Positions 832 through 29,949 of a stretch of 57,184 nt of DNA are shown piece after piece (the stretch's first letter is position 1; each line of letters opens with the position of its first letter). This stretch comes from an uncultured Clostridia bacterium (lineage in GTDB: Bacteria > Bacillota > Clostridia > TANB77 > CAG-508): positions 1-57,184 of the forward strand of contig CAMVJW010000010.1 of NCBI GenBank assembly GCA_947167965.1. The letters run 5' to 3'. The notes beneath the pieces are model-generated. The model worked only from the letters and a program-made list of their open reading frames with translations. It was not told the origin of the DNA and did no database searches. The translations under genes were made by a program, and so were the position numbers.

Positions 832-1182
<351 letters not shown>

Positions 1183-1201
1183 TTAAAACCTCCTAAAAAA
1201 C

Positions 1202-1238
1202 AAACAAAGTGCTAGTCTGATAACTAACACTTAAAAAC
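1202..1238 (-). terminator. rho-independent terminator downstream of 1295-1567
   Basis: Read on the minus strand, AAGTGTTAGT and ACTAGCACTT form a stem around a 6-nt loop, followed by TTTGTTTGTTTTTT. It lies between the unknown gene at 1295-1567 and the recombinase remnant. Confidence 0.7.
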
Positions 1239-1294
1239 CAACTTTAATATTTACTTGTCATATAACTTGCTGAAAATAAAGAAAACTTCTAGTA

Positions 1295-1567
1295 TTAGTT
1301 ACCACTGATAAAATCTCTTAATTTTGAGAGTGGATATTTATTTGCTAAATTACCTATGTAAAAATATTCGTGTTCATTAAAGAATAAATATATCTTATCT
1401 TTAATAACTGCAGTATGTGGTTCTACATAAGCAAGATTAGTTTTTTCTACCATTCTCAAATTACCATTCTTTATCTTTGGTTCACAATTACTAAAAGTGC
1501 AAGCCCATTCAATCTTAGAATGTAATTCTTTACTTATTGCTATTTCTTTTTTAACTGTAGATATCAT
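1295..1567 (-). CDS. hypothetical protein, 90 aa
   Basis: This is a small soluble protein with no recognised family. It starts MISTVKKEIAISKELHSKIE, has two cysteines (CTFSNC), and then a mixed beta-rich stretch (VIKDKIYLFFNEHEYFYIGN). The start at 1567 follows GAAGGAG at good spacing. It lies between a terminator and the attL region, next to remnants of mobile DNA, so it could be cargo of an older island. No function is proposed. Confidence 0.55.
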   Translation of the reverse strand: MISTVKKEIAISKELHSKIEWACTFSNCEPKIKNGNLRMVEKTNLAYVEPHTAVIKDKIYLFFNEHEYFYIGNLANKYPLSKLRDFISGN

Positions 1568-1640
1568 ATCACAAAAGCTCCTTCTTTCAATATTTTGAGG
1601 CTATTTCTTACTTTTATTACCAATTTCAATAATTAAAAGT

Positions 1641-1669
1641 AAAAAAATAAGCCGACTAAATCGACTTAT
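1641..1669 (-). terminator. terminator that probably served the tRNA-Gly before phage insertion
   Basis: On the minus strand, ATAAGTCGA and TCGGCTTAT pair (one G-U) and are followed by TTTTTTT. It lies ~80 bp beyond attL, so in the unoccupied chromosome it would sit just downstream of the tRNA-Gly 3' end. The prophage has moved it 28 kb away. Confidence 0.65.
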
Positions 1670-1745
1670 ATAAGTGATACGATATTCACTTTGTTTTCTT
1701 TAAATTCAGTTATATCAATATGTATAACTGGTTCGACGAAAACGC

Positions 1746-1761
1746 ATTATGGAGCGAGTAG
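1746..1761. repeat. attL core (16 bp)
   Basis: ATTATGGAGCGAGTAG is identical to 29872-29887, with different bases on both sides. Its reverse complement is the last 13 bases of the tRNA-Gly including CCA, plus TAAT. Apart from the core, the terminator at 1641-1669 and the arm repeats at 1884-1910, I see no gene between 1568 and 1912. Confidence 0.9.
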
Positions 1762-1883
1762 TCAAAATTCCATTTTTTCTCTCATATCTATAAATGTCTT
1801 AAAAATATTTTTATGCTATTTTAAGCACTTTTGCTAATTTTAAAAACTGTCTAAAGTATTTATGTATATATTATAAAACTTTA

Positions 1884-1910
1884 CCTATTGCATTATTTAT
1901 TGCATTAATT
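1884..1910 (+). repeat. paired direct repeats, candidate integrase arm sites (left arm)
   Basis: TATTGCATTA occurs twice, joined by a short linker, about 125 bp inside the attL core. The same pair, with one base changed, occurs at 29793-29818 inside attR. Tyrosine integrases of this type bind such arm repeats through an N-terminal domain. Confidence 0.7.
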
Positions 1911-1912
1911 CT

Positions 1913-2065
1913 TTATCTATTAAACCTAATATAATTTTTCATCCAAATATTAATCAAAACATCCAACTTCTGACTTTGTTTTAAAATTTTATCATAACTA
2001 TAATCGTGATTAATCATCTTGTCCAATTTTCTTTTGTTAATCCAAATTAGAAAATTTAATAACAT
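1913..2065 (-). CDS. Spo0E-like aspartyl-phosphate phosphatase, 50 aa
   Basis: The ORF is too short for usual cut-offs but has an ideal start: AGAGGTGATAATT followed by ATG at 2065. The protein reads INKRKLDKMI, then a short turn, then ILKQSQKLDVLIN. This is the Spo0E family pattern of two antiparallel helices: I..KRK...I in helix 1 and SQ.LD.LI in helix 2. B. subtilis Spo0E has SQELDVLINEY at the same place. Spo0E proteins remove phosphate from Spo0A~P and so hold back sporulation. The gene lies inside the prophage, ~150 bp from the attL core, and is divergent from a zinc-ribbon gene. Tandem Spo0A boxes lie in its promoter region. I infer a lysogenic-conversion role: tuning host sporulation. 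The family call is confident; activity is untested. Confidence 0.85.
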   Translation of the reverse strand: MLLNFLIWINKRKLDKMINHDYSYDKILKQSQKLDVLINIWMKNYIRFNR

Positions 2066-2084
2066 AATTATCACCTCTAATTAC

Positions 2085-2128
2085 ATTATACATTATGTTA
2101 AATAAAAAGTCTGTCGAAAGGTGTCGAA
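2085..2128 (-). promoter_or_regulatory. promoter of the Spo0E-like gene with two tandem Spo0A (0A) boxes
   Basis: TGTCGAA occurs at 2112-2118 and again at 2122-2128, separated by AGG. Both are perfect 0A boxes, and the 10-bp period is that of known Spo0A dimer sites such as abrB. On the minus strand a TATAAT (2090-2085) lies 20 bp upstream of the Spo0E-like ATG. Its -35 region is poor (CAGACT at 2113-2108) and abuts the boxes, as expected for a promoter that needs an activator such as Spo0A~P. Repression is also possible. Confidence 0.7.
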
Positions 2129-2149
2129 AAAGTAAAAAAATTAATAATT

Positions 2150-2177
2150 TTGATTTTTTTTATATAATTAGTATAAA
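2150..2177 (+). promoter_or_regulatory. candidate promoter for zinc-ribbon gene 2221-2406
   Basis: TTGATT (2150-2155), a 16-bp spacer and TATAAA (2172-2177) lie ~45 bp before the gene's ATG. The Spo0A boxes end ~21 bp upstream of the -35, so this promoter could share their control. Confidence 0.45.
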
Positions 2178-2220
2178 AAAATACAAATTTTTCTATATGT
2201 TATATGAAGGAGGTGGAAAA

Positions 2221-2406
2221 ATGTTTAATTCAAATAATATTTATAATAGAACTTTCATATGTTCTAAATGTAATAAACCTTATAAGCTAGTAAAATTTAA
2301 CAAAAATGATTCAAAAGAAAAAATTTGTAATTTTGAATTTATTGGTTACACATCAATTCAAACAGAATGTCCATTCTGCAATTGCAGCAACTGTGCAGAT
2401 TTGTAA
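2221..2406 (+). CDS. small zinc-ribbon-like protein, 61 aa
   Basis: The ATG at 2221 follows GAAGGAGGTGG at good spacing. An in-frame upstream ATG at 2095 lacks a ribosome binding site and is less likely. The protein has CSKC near residue 13 and a Cys-rich end, CPFCNCSNC, so it probably binds one or two zinc ions. No family is recognised. It is divergent from the Spo0E-like gene, shares its Spo0A-box region, and is followed by a strong terminator. It may be a partner or regulator in the same sporulation-linked cargo unit, which is inference from position only. Confidence 0.7.
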   Translation: MFNSNNIYNRTFICSKCNKPYKLVKFNKNDSKEKICNFEFIGYTSIQTECPFCNCSNCADL

Positions 2407-2428
2407 GATATTTACCAATAATGCAAAA

Positions 2429-2462
2429 AAGAGGTAGACTATAATTAATAAATCTACCTCTT
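2429..2462. terminator. bidirectional terminator between zinc-ribbon gene and lysin
   Basis: AAGAGGTAGA (2429-2438) pairs with TCTACCTCTT (2453-2462), with A-tract before and T-rich sequence after. It ends transcription from both the + gene at 2221 and the late operon on the minus strand. Confidence 0.8.
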
Positions 2463-2465
2463 ATA

Positions 2466-3992
2466 TTATTTATAATTATTTACATTTATATAAGCTACTC
2501 TACCTGTAGCTTTTACTTTTACTTGATCCACACTAGAATTTATATTCTTTAAAATAGTTACTGTAGTATTTGCTTTATATGTGTACCTAGTTCCACTTAA
2601 ATTTGAATTTTTGTATAAATTACAAGCTTTTAACTTTTTAGTTGATCCTACTGTTCCTCTTGCTCCGGTTATTGTTACATTCGAATAAGCACTATTATTT
2701 ATATATGCTTTTCTTCCTGTAGCTAATACTTGAATATAATCTACAGATGAACTTATATTCTTTAATATTCTAATAGTAGTATTTGCCTTATAATTGTATT
2801 TTTTACCTGTTAAATTACTATTAGAATATAAAGTCATAGCTCTTGTTAATTTCTTTGTCTGTCCTGCATTATTTGTTAAATTTAAGGTATCTATATCTCT
2901 GCTTGTATAGTCTAAACATATCCAACCTAAATCAGTTTTACCCCAATTTTGTGATATAGCCAATATAGTTACTACCCTATTCCTCAAATAACTTCCTATT
3001 TGTTTATATGATGTACTAGCACCTTGTCTTATTCTTAAACTAGATGCTGTTATTTTTACTTGATAATTTGTAGTTTGAACTGTGTCATTTGTTGATACCG
3101 TTGACACAGTAGTTTTATTTTCTTTTTCTACACTATTTGCATCATAACCATAACAGAAAAATTGTTTATAATTTGCATATTTTCTAAAATTATCTACTGA
3201 ACAATACACAGTGTTTCCACTTACTGTTACTTTTCCTCTTCTGGTACTAGTTTCAAATTTACCACTATATAAATATGGATCATATATCTTTAAAGTATTA
3301 CCTTCTATTCCATAGATTACTATATAATGTCCTCCAGTTGTAAATAATCCATTTCCACAACTTGCTATTATATAATAATCACTCTGTAATAATTCTATTG
3401 CTCTATCTAAATAAGAAGTTTCTGCATAGTCTATATCAAACTCATCTGCTACAGCTCTGTAAGCACTCCAATAAGTTCCATTATTTGCTGAACGATATCC
3501 GTTTTCAATGAATACATCTGCTAAAGTTCTTATATCTACATATCCCTTTATACTATCAATTATCATTGCTGCCGAAGCTACTCCACAACCACTTGAACCA
3601 ATAGTTTGTGAACTATTCCCTGTTAATGTATAAGGATAATATCTCCATCTATTATCTATTTGAGAAATATATGTCAATTGTGGGTTGTCATCTGTATGTA
3701 AATTCCAATGTTTTGCATCTCCTTCGTATGCTATATCTCCTTGAAGTTCAAAGCTTTCATCTTCTACTTCTTGAACTTCAAGTGTTTGTTCATCATTTTC
3801 TGTTAATTCTGGTATTTCAGTACTAGACATATTTATTACTTTTATTTCATCTGAGATTATTTGTATCGCTTCTTCTAGTTTATTTGTATCTATTTGTCCT
3901 GTTTGTTTATAATTAAAATAAACACTTAAAAACAAAATAAATACTGTTAATAATACTAGAATATAGCTAAATATTTTTTCTTTATCTTTCAT
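2466..3992 (-). CDS. membrane-anchored C39-type lysin with SH3 and duplicated C-terminal domains, 508 aa
   Basis: This is probably the phage endolysin. Residues 8-26 form a single hydrophobic segment, followed by an acidic linker (30-90). Residues ~106-285 match the peptidase C39-like 2 fold: catalytic Cys136 in GSSGCGVASA, His222 in TTGGHYIVIYG and an Asp238 in IYDPY. Residues ~310-362 look like an SH3b domain (ASSLRIRQGASTSYKQIG). Two near-identical ~57-residue units follow (380-436 and 452-508, both containing YKANTT and ATGR.AYIN), likely wall-binding. It is the last gene of the late operon, after the holin-like gene. The N-terminal membrane segment is unusual for a Gram-positive phage lysin and suggests signal-anchor-release export. 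An alternative is a lysogen surface protein. Confidence 0.75.
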   Translation of the reverse strand: MKDKEKIFSYILVLLTVFILFLSVYFNYKQTGQIDTNKLEEAIQIISDEIKVINMSSTEIPELTENDEQTLEVQEVEDESFELQGDIAYEGDAKHWNLHTDDNPQLTYISQIDNRWRYYPYTLTGNSSQTIGSSGCGVASAAMIIDSIKGYVDIRTLADVFIENGYRSANNGTYWSAYRAVADEFDIDYAETSYLDRAIELLQSDYYIIASCGNGLFTTGGHYIVIYGIEGNTLKIYDPYLYSGKFETSTRRGKVTVSGNTVYCSVDNFRKYANYKQFFCYGYDANSVEKENKTTVSTVSTNDTVQTTNYQVKITASSLRIRQGASTSYKQIGSYLRNRVVTILAISQNWGKTDLGWICLDYTSRDIDTLNLTNNAGQTKKLTRAMTLYSNSNLTGKKYNYKANTTIRILKNISSSVDYIQVLATGRKAYINNSAYSNVTITGARGTVGSTKKLKACNLYKNSNLSGTRYTYKANTTVTILKNINSSVDQVKVKATGRVAYINVNNYK

Positions 3993-4003
3993 AGTGCACC
4001 TCC

Positions 4004-4288
4004 TTAATCAATTAATTGAAATTTATGAACTAATATATTTATATCGTCAATAAAAGAGTTTCCTTTTAGTTTTTTGTATTGTTCAAAACTATAATCAAAG
4101 CTCTGTAATTGATATTTTGTTATTTGCTTTTTATCTTTACATCTATCATAAATAGATAGCATATCGTTTCTCAAACTGCATTTTGTTGCATCTATCATTG
4201 CTTTTTCAAATTTATACATAGCACCTAAAAGAGTACAGACAAACATTATCTGTACCCAATAATTTTTTATAAAATTTATAACTGGCAT
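4004..4288 (-). CDS. holin-like small membrane protein, 94 aa
   Basis: It has one clear membrane segment near the N-terminus (about residues 8-25, NYWVQIMFVCTLLGAMYKF) and a charged, helical C-terminal part. The place between the tail-fibre gene and the lysin, and the 11-bp gap to the lysin, fit a holin or holin accessory protein. Classical holins have two or three membrane segments, so this could instead be an XhlA-like partner or a lysis regulator. No specific holin family is recognised. Confidence 0.5.
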   Translation of the reverse strand: MPVINFIKNYWVQIMFVCTLLGAMYKFEKAMIDATKCSLRNDMLSIYDRCKDKKQITKYQLQSFDYSFEQYKKLKGNSFIDDINILVHKFQLID

Positions 4289-4404
4289 TTTTTGCCTCGC
4301 TTTCTTTAGAATTTTATATTTTTACCTTTTTCTATTAAATTAAATAATTTAATCATTTAATCGCCTATTTTTACATTATATCTACACATTTGTTTTTAAT
4401 TAAA

Positions 4405-6675
4405 TTATTCGTCAATAGATGGTATTGTTCCGTAAGTAAATCCTCTATTATTTCCAGCGCCTACTCTAACTAAATCAATATGTTTAGTTTGTTTATTTAT
4501 ACAAATAATATCAAATGCTTGCTCATAAACTGTTCCAGCATCTCTTCTATATCCAAGCTGCGAATAATCATCATTATAATGAGCATCACAAGTAGTTTGG
4601 AAATATACCACATTATTATCAATTCCAATACCATCTTGATGCATATGCCCACATGCAACAAATAATACATTTGCTTGTTTGTTCCCTGTAAAATCTGCGT
4701 GAATATTATAAACTGCTGTTCCGTATGTATCTTCCCAATTAAAAGTAGTTCCATTATTTAAAGCTTTAAACATTTCTCTATGTCTATAATAGTTGTTATT
4801 GTCCTTAATAGGTTGATGTGTAAATATAGCAACACTCCAACCGCTTGTTGGAAATACAAAAGCTTTATTTACTAGCCATTCCGTACAAGCAACTGAAAAT
4901 CCTTTTTTTTCGCCTGTTTCTTCTGTCGAAAGTATTATATATCTTATTTTTTGTTTTTCATTATCATAATAACAATAATTTCCATAAGGATTATTTTCAT
5001 CATATACAACCTTATCTGTTTGCCTTTTGAAAAGAATGCCAAATAATTCATTCGGTTCAATTCTTACTTGTTCTTGATAATATGCACCATAACCATTATT
5101 ATCATGATTTCCAACATTTCTAATTATTCTATTGTTTAAAGCAACATTAAAAGAATTTATACTTTCATATAATTCTGATATTGCTAATTCTTTTGTATTT
5201 ATTACTGATGAACTACCAAAGGCACTATCTCCACCATCAAATACCATTGATAGATTAGTTTTATTATATATCTCTTTTAAAAGATAAGGACTATTCATTG
5301 AATTACTAGGTACGTGTATATCTGTTATAAATCCAACTGTGTCTCCATTGACACCAATATTTTGTTCAAGTGCATTAATTTCATCTATCTTACTATTTAA
5401 ATGCTCTTTATAATATGTTGGTATTCCAGAATTAATATCTTTAACAACTGTATTTAAATCTTTGTAAATATATTTTTTAATACTTAATGGATAACTATTT
5501 CCTACTCTATGTGAAATTAAAAGTTTTGTAGCACCATAAGGAATTTTAAAATCAAATTCAGTAGCTTGGTCAGATACATTAGTAGTTAAATAATCAATAA
5601 CATTTAAATCATCATCTGTAAAAAATATAGGATAAATTGAGCCAGATGTAGGTTTATATAAACTTACCTTATAATGTTCATTAAATGATACAGAATAATC
5701 TTTATGATAATTAGATGATCCACTTTGTGTATATAGATAAGTTTTATTAAATTTTTTAGCAGCATAATATCCGTATTCACTATCTTCAGCATCATCTGTT
5801 ATATCAATTACTTCTCCTAAATCATTCTCCAGTTTATCTATTATAATATTATCTACATAATTAAAATTGTTATTAATTAAATCTATAACTTCTTGATTAG
5901 ATATATTTGATTTAATATAATCTAAATTACCAAAATAGTAAGGAATAATCATTATATCTTTAATTTCACAAGCAACATCATTCCAAATACGGAAATTATT
6001 AATATCACTTGATAATTCTATATCAAAAGAATTTCTAACATTAAAGTCTTGATTATTTAAAATTTTGCTTGCAACAATAGTAGTGTCATTACGAAATTGA
6101 ACAGTAAAAGTACCTGATGTTCCTGTTGAAACTAACGAAATTATATACTTTTCAGCTTTTAAATTTAAAGGTACACTATCAAAATTAGCTCTAGTCCAAC
6201 TTAAATCTCTTTTATCATAAAGATTAACCGAACCTTTATCAATAAAGTTAATTAATTGGTTCACAGCATTACTATTTTCCGCTGTTTGGTATGCTCCACC
6301 ATCTTGCCAAGTAGTACCATCATGCCAATACCAATGTCCATCAGTGGTATTTACATATACCCTAGTAGTATCTGTCATTTCACTTACAGAACTTGCTACT
6401 AAAGGACTTCCACTTGCTAAACTATTTATTTGATTCTGTAAATTATTATTTGCTATATCTACTTCTTGCTTACTTGCCTTTACACTATCGCTGTTATTTA
6501 GTCTTTCTCTTAATGTGTTGAATGTCCCTCTTGCCTGTGCTACTTCCATGTTAGAACTTCCCTTTTCAGTTGCATCTTCATATGTTTGTTCTATTGCAGA
6601 AGCTATGCTTTCTCTTACATCTTTGCCTAATCTTGCATTTCTTATATTTTTTATAAGTTCTATTATACTAGCCAT
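4405..6675 (-). CDS. tail fibre / baseplate protein with C-terminal metallophosphoesterase domain, 756 aa
   Basis: The N-terminal ~85 residues (IELIKNIRNARLGKDVRESI) are the attachment region common to Firmicutes phage baseplate and fibre proteins. Residues ~100-130 (VYVNTTDGHWYWHDGTTWQ) are a motif often seen in such fibres. From ~445 to the end is a calcineurin-like phosphoesterase with all metal ligands in order: D452-x-H454, GGD483, GN523-H524-D, H620 and GH677-x-H679. Being at the tail tip, it probably binds the cell surface and cleaves a phosphodiester there, for example in a phosphate-containing wall polymer. The substrate is inferred. It overlaps the upstream Tal gene by 1 bp. Confidence 0.8.
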   Translation of the reverse strand: MASIIELIKNIRNARLGKDVRESIASAIEQTYEDATEKGSSNMEVAQARGTFNTLRERLNNSDSVKASKQEVDIANNNLQNQINSLASGSPLVASSVSEMTDTTRVYVNTTDGHWYWHDGTTWQDGGAYQTAENSNAVNQLINFIDKGSVNLYDKRDLSWTRANFDSVPLNLKAEKYIISLVSTGTSGTFTVQFRNDTTIVASKILNNQDFNVRNSFDIELSSDINNFRIWNDVACEIKDIMIIPYYFGNLDYIKSNISNQEVIDLINNNFNYVDNIIIDKLENDLGEVIDITDDAEDSEYGYYAAKKFNKTYLYTQSGSSNYHKDYSVSFNEHYKVSLYKPTSGSIYPIFFTDDDLNVIDYLTTNVSDQATEFDFKIPYGATKLLISHRVGNSYPLSIKKYIYKDLNTVVKDINSGIPTYYKEHLNSKIDEINALEQNIGVNGDTVGFITDIHVPSNSMNSPYLLKEIYNKTNLSMVFDGGDSAFGSSSVINTKELAISELYESINSFNVALNNRIIRNVGNHDNNGYGAYYQEQVRIEPNELFGILFKRQTDKVVYDENNPYGNYCYYDNEKQKIRYIILSTEETGEKKGFSVACTEWLVNKAFVFPTSGWSVAIFTHQPIKDNNNYYRHREMFKALNNGTTFNWEDTYGTAVYNIHADFTGNKQANVLFVACGHMHQDGIGIDNNVVYFQTTCDAHYNDDYSQLGYRRDAGTVYEQAFDIICINKQTKHIDLVRVGAGNNRGFTYGTIPSIDE

Positions 6676-28465: not shown

Positions 28466-28475
28466 ATAAAAAATT

Positions 28476-28603
28476 GGAAAAAGTGTTCAAGTTTGCGACA
28501 CGACCACTTTTTCCCAACAACACTATTGAAAGTGTTACAAGTATAATATCAAATTATGCTTCCATTTTCAATAGTTTATTAAAAAAAATTATTGAAAAAA
28601 TGG
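28476..28603 (+). promoter_or_regulatory. structured integrase leader with mutually exclusive pairings near the ribosome binding site
   Basis: Hairpin 1: GGAAAAAGTG (28476-28485) pairs with CACTTTTTCC (28505-28514); its loop holds the TGCGACACGACCAC element. Then segment A (CTATTGAAA, 28523-28531) can pair with B (TTTCAATAG, 28566-28574). B extended leftwards (CCATTTTCAAT from 28562) can instead pair with C (ATTGAAAAAATGG, 28591-28603). C contains the first bases of the GGAGG site, so B-C would hide it and A-B would free it. Seen as sequence complementarity only. Confidence 0.5.
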
Positions 28604-28614
28604 AGGTATTTTTT

Positions 28615-29787
28615 ATGGAAAGAAAAAACAAAAAAACTAAATCTGTAGGAAATGGCGAAGGATCATTATATTATTCTGAAAAATTACAAAAATGGATTTT
28701 TCAATATGTTTATAATGGTAAAAGACAAACTCTTACGCAGAAGAAAAATGAAAAGGTAAAAGATTTTAAAGCTAGAGTTACTAAAATAAAAAATGATGTA
28801 AATAATGGAACATACATTGAGAAAAACAATGAAACTTTTATTTCTATCTTAGAAGCTTTTGTTGAACAAAAACATGAAGATGGTCTTGTAACTGATAGAA
28901 CTTATGGTAGAGATTTATCAACTGTTGAACAAATTAAAAAAACATGTAATAATTTCATTGATAAACCTATTCAAAAAATAAAGGTAGAAGATATTGAAAA
29001 AAGTAAAAAATATATAAGAGAATACTCTAATTCTGTTATTACAAAAATGTGGATATTAATTAATAAAACTTTTCAAATTGCAGCTATTAGAAGAAAAATT
29101 CCTTATAATATTATGATGGATGAAACACTGAAAAAACCTATTTCTAAAAAAGCTCAAATTCAAACTGAAGCTTTAACAGTCAAAGAAGAAAAAGATCTTA
29201 TAAAAATACTAAATACCAGTGAAATCCATCATAAATATAGAAATATTATACTTTTACAACTTTACACAGGTATGCGTATAGGAGAAGTTTTAGCTTTAAG
29301 TAAAGATTGTATAAATTTAAAGAACAATACATTAACTGTATATCGTACTTTAACTCAAGATGAAAGTTACAATGTAATAATGGGAGAACATACAAAAACT
29401 TTTAAAAAATCAACTGGAATAGATTTAGGTAAAAGAACTTTTCCAATGAATGCAAATGTAAACAAAATAATTAAAGAAATTCTTAATTCTAAAACAGCTA
29501 ACATTAACGGACTTTTATTTTGGAATAATTCAAAACAAACATATATTACACCATCAGAAATAAATAGTTGGCTTAGAAGAATAAATCAAAAATATCATAT
29601 AACAGATACTTCCCTACACTCTCACAAACTTAGGCATACTTTTATAACTCGATGTGTAGAAAATAACATGTCCTTAAAAGTTATTCAAACATTAGTAGGA
29701 CATGTTCAAGGAAGTTCGATAACTAATGATATTTATACCTCTGTATCTGAAGATTTTATCAAAGATGAATTAAAAAAACTAAGTTAA
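28615..29787 (+). CDS. int: tyrosine integrase, 390 aa
   Basis: The start at 28615 (MERKNKKTKSVGNGEGSLYY) has GGAGG 8 bp upstream; the longer frame back to 28474 runs through the structured leader. An AP2-like arm-binding N-terminus (GEGSLYYSEKLQKWIFQYVYN) is followed by a core-binding SAM-like domain (~70-170) and the catalytic domain: Arg in LYTGMRIGEVLALS, H337-K-L-R340 (HSHKLRHTF), H363 (LVGHVQG) and nucleophile Tyr374 (NDIYTSVS). It catalyses insertion into tRNA-Gly. It ends 85 bp from attR and is the rightmost prophage gene. Confidence 0.95.
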   Translation: MERKNKKTKSVGNGEGSLYYSEKLQKWIFQYVYNGKRQTLTQKKNEKVKDFKARVTKIKNDVNNGTYIEKNNETFISILEAFVEQKHEDGLVTDRTYGRDLSTVEQIKKTCNNFIDKPIQKIKVEDIEKSKKYIREYSNSVITKMWILINKTFQIAAIRRKIPYNIMMDETLKKPISKKAQIQTEALTVKEEKDLIKILNTSEIHHKYRNIILLQLYTGMRIGEVLALSKDCINLKNNTLTVYRTLTQDESYNVIMGEHTKTFKKSTGIDLGKRTFPMNANVNKIIKEILNSKTANINGLLFWNNSKQTYITPSEINSWLRRINQKYHITDTSLHSHKLRHTFITRCVENNMSLKVIQTLVGHVQGSSITNDIYTSVSEDFIKDELKKLS

Positions 29788-29871: not shown

Positions 29872-29887
29872 ATTATGGAGCGAGTAG
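29872..29887. repeat. attR core (16 bp), overlapping tRNA 3' end
   Basis: Identical to 1746-1761. The phage copy restores the last 12 bases of the tRNA (including CCA), so the gene remains complete in the lysogen. Confidence 0.92.
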
Positions 29888-29949
29888 AGGGAATCGAACC
29901 CTCATCACCAGGTCGGAAGCATGGGATTCTGCCATTAAACTATACCCGC
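29876..29949 (-). tRNA. tRNA-Gly (anticodon TCC)
   Basis: 74 nt with encoded CCA. The acceptor stem GCGGGTA/TACTCGC pairs with one G-U; D-arm GTTT/GAAT and T-arm GAGGG/CCCTC are present. The anticodon loop CTTCCGA gives TCC. The anticodon stem CCATG/CCTGG has a T-C mismatch at 30-40, and position 37 is G where A is usual. It serves as the prophage attachment site. Confidence 0.88.

Follow-up and report, generated by a model that had tools for sequence, protein, structure and literature searches.

A prophage in the genome of an uncultured Clostridia bacterium carries, next to its left attachment (att) site attL, a 50-amino-acid (aa) Spo0E-family gene, spo0E, behind a promoter with two exact Spo0A boxes. 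The prophage lies in a stretch of 57,184 nucleotides (nt; contig CAMVJW010000010.1, assembly GCA_947167965.1), called the window below. We consider it likely that this tRNA-Gly-integrated gene would be induced by phosphorylated host Spo0A (Spo0A~P) through the two tandem boxes, and that its product would then dephosphorylate Spo0A~P, thereby braking the lysogen's sporulation through negative feedback. The family, the attL-side position, a terminator-like hairpin, the two perfect boxes and a 21-base-pair (bp) spacing common with the spoIIGA and spoIIE promoters can all be read from the DNA itself.

The Spo0A-type promoter of the prophage spo0E gene

As shown in Table 1, the gene strand upstream of the spo0E ATG reads TTCGACA-CCT-TTCGACA, 21 bp, TATAAT. 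The complement of this heptamer, TGTCGAA, is given as the core of the Spo0A box for both Bacillus subtilis and Clostridioides difficile Spo0A (PMC3485338). The tandem-box pattern, with at most one mismatch, had a single occurrence in the 57-kb window, and 100 shuffles yielded none. Phage-repressor operators were considered as another identity for the boxes and rejected, since TTCGACA occurs just three times in the 57 kb, two of them here, which is unlike an operator set. A simple promoter scan of the window gave 9 promoters against 8.2 expected; its spacer limit of 16-18 bp means that it cannot show a promoter with a 21-bp spacer, a length that is poor for sigma-A unaided.

Homologous loci were collected by an alignment-based scan, which gave 17 loci in viral contigs and 18 in genome contigs. 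The phage clade comprised 18 loci, namely the window, 16 viral contigs and L051; the 5'-disrupted locus L047 was left out of the spacer, box and GACA-N21 counts and kept as a miss in the test of all 36 loci. Within this clade the best-fit spacer, with 19-23 bp allowed, was 21 bp in 18/18 loci, and the proximal box was exact in 17/18. Across the 36 homologous loci, which have 33 distinct upstreams, extend to relatives only about 50% identical and, being related, are not independent events, a box and a -10 element with at most one mismatch each were present in 31, and the spacer was 20-22 bp in 30 of these 31. Shuffled upstreams in the same test gave a mean of 0.47 hits and a maximum of 3. The five misses were L047, L061, L062, L065 and L067. 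Taken across loci, the flanks differ widely and the distal box is variable, while the proximal box, the spacer and the -10 element are mostly kept.

The host genome encodes SpoIIGA, SpoIIE and a canonical Spo0A, and the DNA-binding domain of its Spo0A aligned end to end with 1lq1, with a nearly unchanged recognition region. A second protein with Spo0A_C, its receiver domain divergent, is encoded at L003, 1024-1809 (G000 contig 5), followed by a membrane sensor-like gene. In the surrounding genome set, GACA-N21-TANNWT was found upstream of spoIIGA in 19 of 25 scorable loci and upstream of spoIIE in 18 of 27, and it was likewise present at 17/18 phage-clade spo0E genes. The spacers of B. subtilis spoIIG and spoIIE are also unusually long. 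The pattern was seen at 0/29 ordinary chromosomal spo0E genes, 20 of which have a TTGACW-N17 promoter instead, and at 4 of 157 control open reading frames (ORFs), a set that is not fully independent, as some of its members derive from loci retrieved for that pattern (L162-L169). For these counts SpoIIE was recognised with PF19732, which replaced TIGR02764 after the latter proved to be the model of PdaB; L127 (spoIIGA) and L206 and L213 (spoIIE), having no start or no complete ORF, and the second fragments L136-L138 and L214 were left out. None of the scored host promoters had an exact TTCGACA with a -10 element 14-25 bp on. The tandem pattern itself, with 18-24 bp allowed, gave 19 hits in 16 of 192 genomes, the spacer being exactly 21 bp in 17 hits (reversed control, 0), and 21 hits in viral contigs, 19 with 21 bp (reversed control, 2). 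In B. subtilis, spoIIG and spoIIE are reported to be up-regulated by Spo0A~P (PMC4213463). Judged from its sequence, the prophage promoter is probably bound by Spo0A and activated, not repressed.

Several results weigh against this picture. A weight matrix built from 15 spoIIGA promoters did not recognise the window promoter, which scored -9.7 against a best background of 6.9; with the same matrix, 9/18 phage-clade promoters exceeded background, the best at 20. We therefore claim the promoter core only, in the sense that it would work like a spoIIGA promoter, not that it is a copy of one. The 21 viral hits precede a Spo0E gene in 7 cases and a second, 57-aa family in 1, the 19 genome hits in 2 and 5 cases respectively, and the others have an unnamed gene or none. 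Furthermore, by our own reading, 15/29 ordinary chromosomal spo0E genes have one TGTCGAA farther upstream, so that spo0E may be linked to Spo0A in some way throughout the genus.

The Spo0E-family protein and its prophage

The first-pass annotation had called the gene a Spo0E-like phosphatase from its motif, and the profile search agreed: PF09388 (Spo0E-like) matched the 50-aa protein at 26.6 bits, above the gathering cut-off of 23. The NCBIfam search with this protein gave no match, and PHROGs gave a single weak one (phrog_9671, E 0.014). Searching a protein database at E <= 0.01 brought up 48 relatives; identity was 71-88% for 47 of them and 59% for the remaining one. The SxxxD signature with its conserved Asp is present as SQKLD, in line with the SQxLD-type motif first noticed, and QSQxxD was found in 49/49 aligned sequences, in which S31, Q32 and D35 are invariant, as are M1, L2, L3, F5, L6, N10, K13, L14 and M17 of the N-terminal helix. 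Pooled over the 105 pairs that 15 coding sequences form, the ratio of nonsynonymous to synonymous polymorphism (pN/pS) was 0.24, indicating that substitution in spo0E is constrained. An in-frame GTG at 2074 would be an alternative start and add 3 aa. On this sequence evidence, the protein is a member of the Spo0E family, whose phosphatases also include YisI and YnzD.

The two-helix hairpin proposed at first was also returned by AlphaFold2, with predicted helices at 2-19 and 24-49 and a mean predicted local distance difference test (pLDDT) score of 96.5. The best Foldseek match in the PDB was 2c0s, an aspartyl-phosphate phosphatase of Bacillus anthracis (probability 0.90, template modelling score 0.76, E 0.59), which a second structural aligner placed only 11th, amid many unrelated hairpins; a PDB sequence search gave 2bzb at E 0.54, or 0.08 when a profile was used. 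The modelled shape agrees with the Spo0E family, although it is unspecific and proves nothing alone.

Table 1 Positions of the promoter, the spo0E gene and the prophage landmarks in the window
Feature	Position	Strand	Remark
attL core, 16 nt	1746..1761	.	exact repeat of 29872-29887
Spo0E-family gene (spo0E), 50 aa	1913..2065	minus	ATG at 2065, stop ending 1913
Ribosome-binding-like site AGAGGTGAT	2070..2078	minus	before spo0E ATG
-10 element TATAAT	2085..2090	minus	21 bp from proximal Spo0A box
Proximal Spo0A box TTCGACA (TGTCGAA on plus strand)	2112..2118	minus	exact, -35 position
Distal Spo0A box TTCGACA	2122..2128	minus	exact, 10 bp upstream of proximal box
Intrinsic-terminator-like hairpin and T run	2425..2462	minus	in gap between endolysin and spo0E promoter
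Endolysin-like protein, C39-type peptidase and SH3-type repeat	2466..3992	minus	
Tyrosine integrase	28474..29787	plus	phrog_1, E 8.3e-48
attR core	29872..29887	.	at tRNA-Gly 3' end, exact repeat
tRNA-Gly (TCC), integration target	29876..29949	minus	3' end covered by attR repeat

The att repeats enclose portal, protease, capsid, terminase, tape-measure and tail genes together with a repressor and the integrase, and by its gene content and ends the element is a tailed prophage integrated at tRNA-Gly. Ending the gene order on the attL side, spo0E lies past the endolysin and runs in the same direction as the lysis genes, and its reading as phage cargo beside attL was supported. The hairpin ahead of its promoter had a fold z of -3.49, and none of 200 shuffles was equally stable; a simple terminator scan missed it, as the scan allows loops up to 8 and the loop here is 10. 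A similar hairpin precedes the spo0E promoter of L034.

The gene and its promoter recur next to attP in other phages. By our own tally, a relative of the window endolysin lies within 5 kb upstream of spo0E in 12/17 viral loci; downstream, 11/17 have an integrase or recombinase, one being a serine recombinase (L034) and ten being relatives of the window tyrosine integrase; among the six viral loci without one, L038, L042 and L048 end less than 0.5 kb from spo0E. These counts suggest that the slot between endolysin and attP is kept while the integrases change. Searching named phage genomes by tblastn with three queries gave no match, a result of little weight, as published phage Spo0E was likewise unrecovered.

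The phage copy was the only Spo0E match in the host assembly. That it is the sole Spo0E of the host is not claimed: the M16 peptidase found next to the chromosomal gene of relatives was likewise unmatched in this assembly, which is 83% complete, so the chromosomal spo0E region may be missing from it.

Other features were observed around the gene. Between endolysin and spo0E, on the opposite strand, lies a 61-aa ORF with two CxxC pairs (2221-2406, plus strand), whose only Pfam match was below threshold (RexA, E 0.058). Just beyond attL is an N-terminal fragment of a serine recombinase (832-1182, minus strand), perhaps the trace of another element, and 4405-6675 (minus strand) encodes a tail-fibre-like protein with a C-terminal match to calcineurin-like phosphoesterases at 21.2 bits, the Pfam cut-off being 21.5. 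No Pfam or PHROGs match to an RRNPP receptor was found among the six neighbouring proteins scanned (832 to 6675), the rest of the prophage being unscanned.

The predicted feedback loop and competing explanations

Because the boxes lie in the spo0E promoter, the signal that the gene would silence is probably also the one that induces it. As a lysogen begins making Spo0A~P, the spo0E promoter would fire, and it may do so early, before host genes with weaker boxes, because the phage boxes are perfect and the scored spoIIGA and spoIIE boxes of the host are not. Spo0E would then remove phosphate, and Spo0A~P would be held under the commitment threshold. The phage would gain a host kept out of the spore, or one whose entry or commitment is deferred. 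C. difficile Spo0E is reported to repress sporulation and to interact with Spo0A (PMC11115286). Removal of phosphate from Spo0A by the 50-aa protein is plausible, and so is a delayed sporulation of the lysogen. One promoter and a 50-aa protein would make up a complete predicted feedback loop, which can be tested.

The best of the competing explanations, an improbable one in our estimate, is that Spo0A~P represses spo0E, which would then be expressed during growth and silenced at the onset of sporulation, a double-negative loop with switch-like behaviour. The proximal box does sit at the -35 position, where polymerase can be shut out by a bound protein; against this, the 21-bp spacer would serve unaided sigma-A poorly. 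Host spoIIGA and spoIIE have this spacer as well, and in B. subtilis the corresponding genes are up-regulated by Spo0A~P (PMC4213463). We give slightly less credence to the idea that the protein targets another response regulator or an RRNPP-type regulator, with Spo0A merely timing its expression. C. difficile Spo0E is reported to bind RstA as well, and Spo0E-Spo0A interactions to be species-specific (PMC11115286), but the family is known to act on Spo0A, to which the promoter points as well. Least probable of all is the earlier view of a constitutive or late-expressed anti-sporulation moron with boxes of no role, which the shared direction of spo0E and the lysis genes would fit, but not the strong terminator-like hairpin ahead of the promoter or the maintenance of box, spacer and -10 element despite diverging flanks.

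The preferred explanation remains the Spo0A~P-induced brake. It retains much of the first interpretation, namely the family, the predicted hairpin, the phage cargo and a host with Spo0A; what that interpretation overlooked were the Spo0A-type promoter and the terminator-like hairpin. With this type of promoter and a hairpin separating the gene from the lysis operon, a feedback brake at the start of sporulation is likelier than a steady delay.

A wider cassette and comparison with known systems

The more distant genome loci number 17, and at 13 of them the neighbours were viewed, with gene names assigned by eye. A Spo0A-type promoter with spo0E was found in prophages (L052, L056), in the chromosomal metG/aldolase region (L053, L055, L060 and partly L057) and at other chromosomal places, including metK (L058, L064), L063 and L066. 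Weaker boxes with a 21-bp spacer, which failed the strict test, were present in Caloramator beside a terminase relative (L065) and in a region resembling a conjugative element (L062); L067 is disrupted. The chromosomal copies with this promoter at L053, L055, L057, L058, L060, L064 and L066 stand apart from the ordinary spo0E beside the M16 peptidase.

The second small family, of 57 aa, helical and with an SLKYI motif, was found through the promoter alone, and its location, by eye mostly the same endolysin-attP slot, was seen afterwards. Its loci (L073, L091, L093, L097, L105, L106 and L174-L184) have a related tandem-box promoter, and 60 relatives were counted. Two members gave no Pfam match over the cut-off, and a structure search with the family gave two meaningless matches only. 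Of 11 viral loci, among which L180 and L181 share the same upstream, 10 had a best-fit spacer of 21 bp and 10 had one or both boxes exact; the proximal box was exact in 3/11 and otherwise mostly TTCAACA, and 2/11 passed the strict GACA-N21 test. Three longer Spo0E proteins have a C-terminal half that is similar to this family (BLASTP E 5e-6 with a single pair taken by itself). These proteins of 116-124 aa (L141, which equals L005, L142 and L145) look like natural fusions, and they are the 3 that a motif search resolved as two-domain among 20 regions with long Spo0E proteins. Promoter, slot and fusion together suggest that the 57-aa family also acts on sporulation, and the conserved slot and promoter offer a route to unnamed sporulation effectors of this kind. 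Two further small gene families stand behind a tandem TTCGACA-N21-TATAAT promoter (L075, L079, L085 and L078, L080, L103), the first with a third box, exact or near-exact.

We regard as evenly balanced the broader proposal that a portable Spo0A-sensor brake is common to phages and chromosomes of these Clostridia, and perhaps to conjugative elements. Such a cassette would combine a spoIIG-like promoter with near-perfect tandem boxes and an exchangeable small effector, either Spo0E-like or the unnamed 57-aa helical protein, placed in phages in the endolysin-attP slot. The element would eavesdrop on the sporulation decision and cancel it at low Spo0A~P.

Carriage of spo0E by phages is not new in itself, as homologues were described in SecTim467 (PMC4909266) and TP-84 (PMC10969951) and beside RRNPP quorum-sensing genes by Bernard et al. 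2023 (PMC10075063). A Spo0E-like function has also been suggested for a regulatory module of R-type elements in solvent-producing clostridia (PMC10538166). Phage sigma factors, Rap-type systems and homologues judged by their context have so far been the main grounds for phage control of sporulation (PMC10294663, PMC10075063), and a survey of phage sporulation genes leaves Spo0E unmentioned as far as its main text goes (PMC10294663). In the literature searched, mostly titles and abstract openings with few subscription journals, no report of a Spo0A-driven phage spo0E was found.

Like Spo0E of Bacillus and C. difficile, the window protein has PF09388, SxxxD, a predicted two-helix hairpin and a host with Spo0A; unlike those, it is phage-borne, and its subfamily conserves MLLNFLIW and ILKQSQKLD. 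Its Spo0A-type promoter with a 21-bp spacer also differs from the TTGACW-N17 promoter typical of ordinary chromosomal spo0E. With the host-group spoIIGA and spoIIE promoters it shares GACA at -35, the 21-bp spacer and a sigma-A-like -10 element, whereas its boxes are of perfect consensus and tandem in a 10-bp register. The gene of Bernard et al. 2023 is likewise a viral homologue proposed to control sporulation, but its control was predicted from an adjacent peptide receptor (PMC10075063), whereas host Spo0A is the predicted regulator here and no receptor was recognised in the six neighbours. The phage phi29 also has Spo0A boxes (Meijer et al. 2005, via PMC9437464), and its DNA is read by host Spo0A, as is predicted for the window. 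However, phi29 is virulent, halted by Spo0A and hence trapped in the spore (PMC9437464), whereas in the window the boxes precede a putative anti-Spo0A gene.
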